A DNA stretch of 64,000 nt from Paraburkholderia sp. PGU19 (GTDB taxonomy: Bacteria > Pseudomonadota > Gammaproteobacteria > Burkholderiales > Burkholderiaceae). The position numbers and the translations under genes were made by a program. The stretch is from assembly GCF_013426915.1 (NCBI RefSeq), contig NZ_AP023179.1:2046001-2110000 (forward strand). Direction: 5' to 3'. This document shows, piece by piece, positions 14,051 through 56,864 of the stretch. Below the pieces are notes generated by a model, which was given only the letters and a program-made list of their open reading frames with translations, was not told the origin of the DNA and made no database searches. The stretch's first letter is position 1. Each line of letters opens with the position of its first letter.

Positions 14051-14914
14051 ATGCGACTGATCAGCTGGAATGTCCAGTGGGGACGCAGTGCGCACGGGGA
14101 CGTGAACCTGTCGCGCACGATCGACGAGGCGCGGCGGCTCGTCGATTTCGACGTGCTGTGCCTGCAGGAAGTCACGCGCGGCTTTTCGGTGCTGGCGGGA
14201 CATCCGGGCGACGACCAGTTCGCCGAGATCGCCGACGCCCTGCCCGGCTTCACGGTGCTGGAGGCGATCGGCGCGGATTTGCCCGCACTGAAGCTCGATG
14301 CGCCGGCTGCGCCGCGGCGGCAGTTCGGCAATGCGATCGCGACGCGGCTGCCTGTCGAGCGTGTGATCCGGCATTCTTTGCCGTGGCCTGCGGATTCGGA
14401 AGCACCGTCGATGCAGCGGGTCGCGCTTGAGGCTGTGCTGCGTGCTCCGGGCGGTTCGGTACGGGTGATCGTTACGCATCTGGAGTTTTATTCGCTTAAG
14501 CAGCGGCTTGCGCAGGTTGATCGGCTGCGGCAGTTGCAGCAGGAGGCCGCGGGGCATGCGGCGCACCCTGTACCCGCCGAGAACGCTATTGGGCCTTTTG
14601 CTGATACCGGGCGGCCCGTCAGCGCGATCGTGTGTGGGGATTTCAATAGCGCATACGATAGTGAAGCCTACCGGCGGATGCTTGAGCCGCTCGACGGTAG
14701 TCCTTCTTTTATCGATGCGTGGACTGCGCTTCATCCTGGGGAGATGCCGCCGATGACGGCGGGTGTCTATGACAAGGTCCAGTGGGCGGATGGGCCCCTG
14801 ACGTGCGATTTCGCATTTGTCACCGAGGATTTGCGGACGCGGTTACGCAAGTGTGAGGTCGATGGCGCGACCCGCGCTTCGGATCATCAGCCGATTGTGG
14901 TGGAGTTGGGTTGA
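14051..14914 (+). CDS. Endonuclease/exonuclease/phosphatase family protein
   Basis: A 287-residue metal-dependent hydrolase of the EEP (DNase I/exonuclease III-like) superfamily. Family signposts are ISWNVQWG at the start, LCLQEV with the metal-binding glutamate near residue 37, the VTHLEFYS histidine block, [14 protein letters not shown], and the terminal catalytic [11 protein letters not shown]. Substrate is not predictable: members cleave DNA, RNA, phospholipids or phosphoinositides. The ATG at 14051 has GGAG at eight bases. The third quarter of the gene has looser codon use than the start. It ends at a giant palindrome that fills the gap to the convergent exonuclease gene. Confidence 0.85.
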
Positions 14915-14920
14915 GTTTTG

Positions 14921-15081
14921 GTGTTTGCGACGCTGGGGTGGTTTGCTTGTGTTTGCGCTGGCATCCGCGATTCGTTAGCGTGCTTCAGGCGTCGCCCCGC
15001 ACAGGGGCGACGTTTGAAGCACGACGACATAACGCGGATGCCATCGCCAACACCAGCAAACCACCCCAGCGTCGCAGACAC
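14921..15081. repeat. Large imperfect palindrome between convergent genes
   Basis: Two arms of 78 bp (14921-14998 and 15004-15081) pair with 66 of 78 positions identical around a 5-nt loop. It fills almost the whole gap between two convergent stop codons. Its sequence (GCTGGCATCCGCG ... GTGCTTCA ... GTCGCCCC) is shared with the element at 54590-55403, so this is one member of a dispersed repeat family. Confidence 0.9.
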
Positions 15082-54589: not shown

Positions 54590-55403
54590 CGATGCGGGTG
54601 GTCTGGTTTTTTTTTGCCTTTCGGTGGGCGGGCGTTGCCGGTCGGGGTTTTTGGCGTCTGCGCTGGCATCCGCGTTTCGTTAGCGTGCTTCAAGCGTCGC
54701 CCCTGTGCGGGGCGGCACCTACTTTTCTTTGCCGCCGCAAAGAAAAGTAGGCAAAAGAAAGCGGCTAACACCGCCAACATTTCTTCTTGCCTGAGGGCCC
54801 CAACCGGTCTTACGCCTCACACGGCAGCGCACTTGTTCGCGCGTGTTGCCAACGCGCTGAATGAGCGCCTCATCCGCTTCGAATACCCGTGCACGGGCCA
54901 GCGGCGGCGAATGGTTTGCCCCGCCCAGGTGGCAAACTGTGTGTAGGTTGTCGCGTCGTATAGCTTGGCGCTCTTACAGAGTGGAACGCGTGCGCTATCG
55001 GGTCCGAAGTGAGGCGTGTGGAGTACTACGGCCTACACACAGTTTGCCACCTGGGCGGCCGTGGAATGTCTGGCACGGCGTGCTGCAACGCGGGTGCGTG
55101 AAGCGGGTGAGGCGCTCATTCAGAGCGTTGGCAACGAACATGAGTCACGTGGTTGCCGTGTGAAGCGTAAGACCGGTTGGGGGCCCTCAGGCAAAAACTA
55201 GCACTGGCGGTGTTAGCCGCTTTCTTTTGCCTACTTTTCTTTGCGGCGGCAAAGAAAAGTAGGTGCCGCCCCGCACAGGGGCGACGCGTGAAGCACGCTA
55301 ACAAACCGCGGATGCCAGCGCAAACACAAGCAAACCAAACCACCCGCCCCGCGAAACCACAACCCCGGCTACGAGCACAAACCCCCACCAGCGTCGCAGA
55401 CAA
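54590..55403. repeat. Large nested inverted-repeat element between thrC and moeA
   Basis: Arms of about 287 and 289 bp (54661-54947 and 55032-55320) pair around an 84-bp centre. The inner 27 bp of each arm are a perfect match (54921-54947 and 55032-55058). Within each arm is a smaller perfect hairpin, CCTACTTTTCTTTGC / GCAAAGAAAAGTAGG (54718-54732/54737-54751 and 55230-55244/55249-55263). Weaker similarity extends out to about 54590 and 55403. The outer end shares sequence with 14921-15081. Short open frames that read AAFFCLLFFAAAKKS come from the inner hairpin and are not genes. Confidence 0.9.
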
Positions 55404-55415
55404 AAAAACAACCCC

Positions 55416-56864
55416 TTACCGAGTCCGCTCCGCGACAAACTCCTTCACCCGCTCCGCGTCATTCCCCAACACCTCGAACCGCTGCGGCAAATCCTCGATC
55501 CCGCTGAAGGCCGCCGGCCGCTCCGGCTCCCGCTCCAGCGCTTCGCGGATCGTCTCGCCGAACTTGATCGGCTGCGCCGTCTCCAGCACGATCATCGGAA
55601 TGCCCGCTTGCAGATGCTCACGCGCAACCTTCACGCCATCCGCAGTATGCGTATCGATCATCGTGTCGTACTGCTCGAACACATCGCGAATCGTATCGAC
55701 ACGATCATCGTGACTGCTCCGCCCGGAAACGAAACCAAACTCCTGCACACGCGCAAAATCACCGCTCGCCTGCAAGTCGAACCCGCCCTTCTCTTCGACA
55801 TCGCGGAACAGTTGCAATACACGCTTCGGATCACGCCCGAGCAGATCGAACACAAACCGCTCGAAGTTCGACGCCTTCGAAATATCCATGCTCGGGCTGC
55901 TGGTGTGATACGTCTCCGACGACTTGCGCACGCGATAAATCCCCGTACGGAAGAACTCGTCGAGCACATCGTTCTCATTGGTCGCGACCACGAGCTTTTC
56001 GACAGGCAAACCCATCATGCGCGCGATATGCCCCGCGCACACATTGCCGAAATTGCCCGACGGCACCGTGAACGACACGCGCTCGTCGTTGCTCTGCGTC
56101 GCCGCGAAGTAGCCCTTGAAGTAGTACACGACCTGCGCCACGACGCGCGCCCAGTTGATCGAGTTGACGGTGCCGATCTTCTGCTGCGCCTTGAACGCGT
56201 GATCGTTCGATACCGCCTTCACGATATCCTGGCAATCGTCGAATACACCCTCGATCGCGATGTTGAAGATGTTCGGATCTTGCAGCGAATACATCTGCGC
56301 CGTCTGGAACGCACTCATCTTTTTGTGCGGCGACAGCATGAACACGCGAATGCCCTTCTTGCCGCGCATCGCGTATTCAGCCGCGCTGCCCGTATCGCCC
56401 GAGGTCGCGCCGAGAATGTTCAGCGTCTGCCCATGCTTCGCGAGCGTGTACTCGAACAGGTTGCCGAGCAACTGCATCGCCATGTCCTTGAACGCGAGCG
56501 TCGGACCGTTCGACAGTTCCAGCAGCGACAGCGGCGCGCCGCCTTCGACGCCGAGCGTCTTCAGCGGCGTGATCTGCGCGGCGTTCTCCTCGTCGCGCAC
56601 GTTGCAGTACACCTGCGCCGTGTAGGTGCGGCGCGTGAGTTCGCGCAGGTCGTCGGCGGGAATGTCGTCGCTGAACTTGCGCAGGATTTCGAACGCGAGA
56701 TCGGCGTACGGCAACGCGCGCCAGCGCGCGAGTTCATCCGCCGAGACCTTCGGATACTCGTTCGGCAGGTACAAGCCGCCATCCTTCGCGAGACCGCCGA
56801 GCAGGATGTCGGAGAACGTATGGCGCTCGCCGATGCCGGCGCCGCGCGTGGAAATGTAATTCAT
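55416..56864 (-). CDS. thrC: Threonine synthase
   Basis: A 482-residue PLP enzyme that turns phosphohomoserine into threonine. The PLP lysine is in GPTLAFKDMAMQLLG, the phosphate-binding segment is ATSGDTGSAAEYA, and the N-terminal MNYISTRGAGIGERHTF is typical. Length is that of the fungal/proteobacterial form. It follows hom by 30 bp. The stop at 55416 is next to the large repeat element. Confidence 0.97.
   Translation of the reverse strand: MNYISTRGAGIGERHTFSDILLGGLAKDGGLYLPNEYPKVSADELARWRALPYADLAFEILRKFSDDIPADDLRELTRRTYTAQVYCNVRDEENAAQITPLKTLGVEGGAPLSLLELSNGPTLAFKDMAMQLLGNLFEYTLAKHGQTLNILGATSGDTGSAAEYAMRGKKGIRVFMLSPHKKMSAFQTAQMYSLQDPNIFNIAIEGVFDDCQDIVKAVSNDHAFKAQQKIGTVNSINWARVVAQVVYYFKGYFAATQSNDERVSFTVPSGNFGNVCAGHIARMMGLPVEKLVVATNENDVLDEFFRTGIYRVRKSSETYHTSSPSMDISKASNFERFVFDLLGRDPKRVLQLFRDVEEKGGFDLQASGDFARVQEFGFVSGRSSHDDRVDTIRDVFEQYDTMIDTHTADGVKVAREHLQAGIPMIVLETAQPIKFGETIREALEREPERPAAFSGIEDLPQRFEVLGNDAERVKEFVAERTR

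Follow-up and report, generated by a model that had tools for sequence, protein, structure and literature searches.

The quasi-palindrome described here lies in the intergenic gap between thrC and moeA, within a window of 64,000 nucleotides (the whole stretch of DNA that was analyzed, bases 2046001-2110000 of contig 1 in a genome of 11,246,397 bases). We confirmed the identities of both flanking genes; the thrC product has 95% similarity to the P. diazotrophica threonine synthase, which, with the near full-length matches on replicons of this genus given below, is the basis for placing the genome in Paraburkholderia. A first-pass annotation had placed between these genes a pair of long arms around an 84-bp centre, each arm with a perfect 15-bp hairpin, and had seen no supported gene and no transposase belonging to the element. 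All of this stands. The inverted repeat is real: the outer arms (54640-54801 and 55180-55341, 162 nt) match at 89%, the next pairs at 94% (54795-54826 and 55154-55185) and 87% (54845-54889 and 55091-55135), and the innermost arms at 100% around an 84-nt loop (Table 1). The hairpin stems occupy 54718-54751 and 55230-55263. We call the core a quasi-palindrome because over its full length, with the loop counted, it shows a 78.7% match to its reverse complement. A coding element was rejected: reading frames cross the arms, but the hairpin is conserved at all positions and the loop varies in length.

The thrC product ends in ...ERTR here (stop at window position 55416) and in ...AAHTGA in relatives such as P. 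diazotrophica; its last codons look as if they were replaced by element flank.

The outermost parts also match a second site in the window, as had been reported, and this site is itself a short palindrome (the short form in Table 1). We count 32 instances of its junction hairpin genome-wide, including one in a long-element locus (L139).

Table 1. Features of the thrC-moeA element and of its short form (window positions)
Feature	Position	Strand	Basis
Short form: one hairpin flanked by both outer parts of the element, no triplex module	14908..15080	.	sequence comparison
Core palindromic element, ends facing each other	54656..55330	.	arm comparison, genome copies
Left GC-rich REP-like hairpin stem, adjoins GTAG (outward reading)	54694..54718	-	sequence; conserved over 125 ends
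Left module, pyrimidine strand Y TTTTCTTT	54723..54730	+	sequence, module comparison
Left module, purine strand R AAAGAAAA	54739..54746	+	sequence, module comparison
Left R-R' spacer; IS30-like target in other copies	54747..54752	+	sequence, IS copies
Left module, third strand R' AAAAGAAA, mirror of R	54753..54760	+	sequence, module comparison
Inner arm, 27 nt, perfect complement of 55032-55058	54921..54947	+	conserved in copies
Central loop, 84 nt	54948..55031	.	arm comparison
Inner arm, 27 nt	55032..55058	-	arm comparison
Right module, third strand R'	55221..55228	-	sequence
Right module, spacer	55229..55234	-	sequence
Right module, purine strand R	55235..55242	-	sequence
Right module, pyrimidine strand Y	55251..55258	-	sequence
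Right GC-rich REP-like hairpin stem	55263..55287	+	sequence; conserved ends
Right outer box AGCGTCGCAGACAA	55390..55403	+	such box in 54/128 ends

Copies, relatives and age of the sites

The terminal-hairpin pattern matches the genome 250 times and the reversed pattern 0 times. Terminal hairpins are usually paired about 512 bp apart and, at two per element, they indicate roughly 125 elements; an absence of other copies, which the first-pass annotation would have counted against its reading, is clearly not what we find. A search of the genome with the element returns at least 40 near full-length places at 86-100% (best 40 of 242 candidates). The paired hairpins are 480-540 apart in 58 of 67 own loci examined; atypical distances occur in L009-L013 (1638-1990) and L014 (386), and L016-L018 have a single hairpin at the stringency used. 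The longer distances in L009-L013 are due to transposon-like insertions inside the element, and we rejected the reading of the pairs about 1640 and 1990 apart as autonomous transposons. Among the copies read, no parent transposon sharing the element ends was found. The element ends are ragged, and no target-site duplication was recognized by eye.

Read outward, the 125 ends show GTAG, then a 25-nt GC hairpin, then conserved words to about 60 nt, beyond which similarity fades. The outer box is present in 0/128 reversed controls (two mismatches or fewer).

The thrC-moeA site is occupied in 7 of 10 relatives searched (G047, G021, G053, G107, G134, G011, and G078) and lacks the element in G116 and G133, so the comparison with empty sites that had been proposed finds both states; the G097 contig ends inside the element. 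In P. diazotrophica the gap between the two genes measures about 180 bp and lacks the element; in P. solitsugae, P. madseniana, and P. aspalathi it contains one short hairpin unit. In G011 there is a transposon with a 318-aa DDE transposase at the right-hairpin edge of the thrC-moeA copy (L187:5149-6337). G021, G047, and G134 also have the element at six more own sites, and all 22 site-genome combinations examined contain the element (20 aligned through the flank, 2 by the hairpin pair). As these combinations are common to relatives, the copies are old, though their hairpins are undecayed. The thrC-moeA insertion is old.

Conservation between orthologues was measured over seven own sites. In the 20 orthologous alignments the hairpin is identical at 1277/1277 positions; the REP stem agrees at 97.6%, the inner flank at 93.5%, the outer 26-65 nt at 82.4%, the interior at 78.3%, and sequence outside the element at 92.2%. 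Orthologues of thrC and moeA are 82-89% identical at their third codon positions. Since hairpins guided the choice of own sites, this choice can bias all but the changes on the branches of the relatives; on these branches we estimate that about 80 hairpin changes would still be expected at the third-position rate. The interior has decayed at about the third-codon rate or faster, and the end modules are unchanged at the old sites compared.

Near full-length matches occur on replicons of P. caribensis, P. largidicola, and strain 22B1P; a 50-kb region compared from a P. largidicola replicon has no hairpin. The hairpin is present in 82 of 144 same-genus genomes (1 to 365 per genome) and was not detected in 62 at the sensitivity used, which indicates that the element is not essential. 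A core search of 97 genomes found similarity in at least 83 (best five candidates per genome scored), and most partners among the matches listed share the terminal 85-105 bp only. Of 19 other-genome loci (L152-L170), 18 show either a complete palindrome (570-851 bp) or a pair of inverted arms (123-274 bp), and L170 shows the hairpin alone. The interiors of 17 loci, including the thrC-moeA copy, form two groups with no detectable similarity between them.

In a genus that is probably Burkholderia-like (g12) the pair lies between genes for an AraC-type regulator and an astC-type aminotransferase in 9/9 loci, with hairpin distances of 577-662 in five loci and longer in four. Three of the four longer loci (L208-L210) have a PAAR-motif gene between the inverted arms. 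The arms of this locus evolve in concert: they are sisters in 5 of 7 loci (two of the nine, L208 and L211, are omitted because inserts cut their arms), and over all nine the within-locus mean is 0.893, compared with 0.830 between loci.

Motifs related in sequence occur in distant bacteria and in viral sequences. The exact 42-nt form of the module is found in 12 of 369 class-level genomes (the source genome plus 11 genomes spread over 8 further families; none in the control), a count that is uninformative on the mirror rule described below because the pattern included the third strand. A 54-nt module is found in 20 PLSDB records: Burkholderia 7, Paraburkholderia 6, Pasteurella 3, Pseudoalteromonas 2, Ilyobacter (Fusobacteriota) 1, and Aeromonas 1. 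An E. coli collection (20,395 records) gave no module match, and phage records gave none to a 222-nt query.

The location of the element leans to gene 3′ ends, with exceptions. A GC3-based ORF heuristic, which left 16 of 64 own sites unassigned, places 24 of the 48 others between co-directional genes, 19 between convergent, and 5 between divergent genes. In viral contigs the outer-side gene points toward the module 19 times and away 8 times (13 of the 43 modules are inside heuristic ORFs and 3 more have no near outer gene). The Ilyobacter module is upstream of a gene start.

The three-strand module

The hairpin seen by the first-pass annotation is two strands, Y and R, of a module of three; the mirror third strand was missed. 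After R there is a spacer of 5-6 nt and then, immediately inward of the hairpin, a second purine strand R' that is the mirror image of R. The purine motif is defined by antiparallel A.A-T and G.G-C triads, and its triplexes are said not to form in RNA (PMC4666352). Judged by its letters, the Y-R-R' order with a mirror third strand fits the rule for an intrastrand purine-motif DNA triplex. In the genome, R' AAAAGAAA follows at spacer 6 in 115 of 126 own ends; among the remaining 11, 3 are IS-interrupted and 3 have R' within 14 nt.

Modules of 54 of 55 loci suggested the rule of a purine arm followed 5-6 nt on by its mirror. The test set was 58 perfect hairpins from IMG/VR, picked by the hairpin alone with the third strand ignored, and the test is therefore non-circular. 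Within 24 nt of the 35 asymmetric cores, we found a mirror copy only in 23, both a mirror and a direct copy in 6, neither in 6, and a direct copy only in 0. The symmetric cores have a copy in 14 of 23, so that the third strand is absent in 15 of the 58 (6 asymmetric, 9 symmetric). Shuffled windows give an expectation of 0.63 copies per 58, and windows 60-84 nt further on contain none. The mirror-only cores are AAAGAAAA (6), AAGAAAA (4), AAGAGAAA (4), AAAAGAAA (4), AAGAAAAA (3), AAAAAGAAA (1), and AAAGAAAAA (1). The 43 positive modules come from 36 distinct contexts, with a spacer of 6 nt in 27 and 5 nt in 16. Viral contigs L376 and L404 have three and four mirror modules, some of them inverted pairs about 0.4-1.7 kb apart.

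An A-to-G variant in Paraburkholderia G005 and G008 is mirrored in 17/17 modules. In a P. multocida element R and R' are swapped between the ends, and each end has the mirror, not the direct copy. The three-strand mirror covariation across seven core variants, together with unchanged orthologous hairpins amid decaying interiors, gives a comparative test of the putative DNA triplex.

The spacer between R and R' is also an insertion target. The genome contains 10 full copies of an IS30-like element with HTH_38 and rve domains (L192-L201), of which 8 share a single insertion point between R and R' and have a duplication of 3 bp; of the other two, one is elsewhere in an element and one is outside. 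IS4-like and IS5-like are labels that we assigned; Pfam gives DDE or rve domains.

Function and alternatives

The best explanation of the whole, which we hold with middling confidence, is a palindromic repeat, non-autonomous and dispersed through the genome, in which conservation is concentrated at the two ends. On this reading each end joins a GC-rich REP-like hairpin to a putative intrastrand triplex module of the purine motif, class II (Y-R-R'), the ends face each other, and the element probably spread in one piece before its host and the close relatives separated. When single-stranded or underwound, the Y-R-R' strand would most likely fold into a hairpin plus third strand, and the folded module may act as DNA, serving near gene ends as a roadblock or structural landmark. 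The roadblock role is our inference: in E. coli, PIT elements are reported to block DNA polymerase in vitro but to show no in vivo, promoter, or terminator effect (PMC4666352). More tentatively, Y-R-R' could be a DNA triplex that is kept by natural selection, recognized by a conserved cellular reader, and common to Proteobacteria, Fusobacteriota, and phage or prophage genomes; the module pairs that bracket palindromes could then serve at gene ends as domain borders or as DNA roadblocks acting in both directions, with an IS30-family element homing into the spacer. With roughly 125 natural copies in a single genome and an IS that is site-specific, a function can be put to the test.

We consider it unlikely that this is a purely selfish mobile element (MITE- or REPIN-like), whose ends would be transposition ends, folded as single strands, bound by a trans-acting Y1/RAYT-type or other enzyme, and conserved only because intact ends spread. 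The range of 0 to 365 hairpins per same-genus genome, the unrelated interiors beneath the same ends, and the REP-like GTAG beside a GC hairpin are as this would predict. The genome also encodes a single RAYT-like protein (235 aa, L031:1126-1833) that scores 53.4 bits against NF047646, below the cut-off of 80; compared with the RAYT motif, its catalytic histidine motif appears to be lost. Against selfish spread are the 22/22 shared combinations, with old copies and undecayed hairpins, and the lack of a clear target duplication. The genome has three PF01797 (Y1-type) genes and the element is absent from all three loci; a RAYT link was rejected, as none of these genes is flanked by it. The non-autonomous mobile element raised in the first-pass annotation survives in part: the copies are intergenic, repeated, without their own transposase, and variable in site occupancy, but recent mobility is not supported.

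An RNA element, either a transcribed hairpin at mRNA 3′ ends or a small RNA, is quite improbable. A strong RNA structure had been proposed early on and is possible, with a very strong predicted fold on either strand (-544.1 kcal/mol compared with a shuffled mean of -290.3, sd 8.0, n=20, and -536.7 compared with -270.0, sd 6.6). RF02421 (Bp1_684, “Burkholderia sRNA”), whose founding candidate Bp1_Cand684 is reported as RT-PCR-validated in B. pseudomallei (PMC3521395), matches the outer ends at 54632-54728 and 55253-55361 with 42.2 and 40.2 bits (gathering cut-off 44); elsewhere in the genome it exceeds the cut-off, with a best score of 53.9 bits. Its matches are often inverted pairs, are also found in L208 and L212, and occur in at least 32 of 120 family genomes (best 28 candidates per genome scored). 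Rfam at a relaxed threshold gave nothing in the class-level loci except one chance-level match. The excess of convergent over divergent sites and the 215 double compensatory cells (162.8 when shuffled, sd 9.5) would also suit an RNA. However, strand-specific RNA selection is not seen, the G-U (393) and A-C (407) counts showing no strand bias, and broken pairs exceed double compensations in the orthologue comparisons (27, 36, 44, 31, and 67 compared with 5, 7, 12, 3, and 11). The sequence has no U run after the hairpin, and a mirror rule with G.G-C triads is one that applies to DNA triplexes (PMC4666352). We suggest that the RF02421 “sRNA” family may describe a repeat edge.

The weakest alternative, which we think very improbable, is that there is no function and that short-tract gene conversion among the roughly 125 copies, aided by palindrome breakage, keeps the hairpins identical: near-identical donors are many and the arms of the single-copy g12 locus evolve in concert, but own copies show no arm-arm homogenization (p-q 0.712 within and 0.710 between elements), interiors remain 17% diverged, conserved blocks are separate words and not a smooth gradient, and the mirror rule also holds in viral contigs, which usually have a single module.

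Comparison with known systems

A REP unit is 20-40 bp and a REPIN pair about 100 bp; the element, with hairpins about 512 bp apart, is far larger, is palindromic over a long range, and has no flanking RAYT that we found. It shares with GTAG REPs, BIMEs, and REPINs the GTAG tag beside a GC hairpin, repetition in units of opposite orientation (inverted pairs), and a location mostly near gene 3′ ends (PMC3733652). Burkholderia has 0 mentions in that source. Like MITEs, the element is non-coding, with inverted ends and many copies; unlike them, it is palindromic over nearly its whole length, and neither a parent transposon nor a target duplication was found. The founding RNA of RF02421 is a 114-nt single RNA between pdhB and lpdA (PMC3521395), whereas the matches in the element are inverted pairs at palindrome ends.

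We found no published description of the element in searches for the module letters, Burkholderia or Paraburkholderia repeats, and palindromes elsewhere (by titles and abstract starts, with few subscription journals). The closest system is PIT/BoxC (TMECO in PMC4666352), which is likewise intergenic and repeated with the class II order Y-loop-R-loop-R', and which occurs in E. coli MG1655 partly as tandem inverted pairs. For such bacterial triplex-forming repeats, in vitro folding and no function is reported in the available text, and neither Burkholderia nor Pasteurella is mentioned in its main text (PMC4666352). By its letters the element would belong to the same class, having Y, R, and R' in order on one strand and an antiparallel mirror R'. 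Its module is A/T-rich, in contrast to the G/C-rich PIT (PMC4666352), and lies next to a REP-like hairpin at either end of a palindrome about 0.6-0.8 kb long; in addition, we show that its three strands covary and that it is conserved between the orthologous sites compared. Triplex-motif repeats are known from BoxC/PIT; what is new is their pairing at the ends of giant palindromes.
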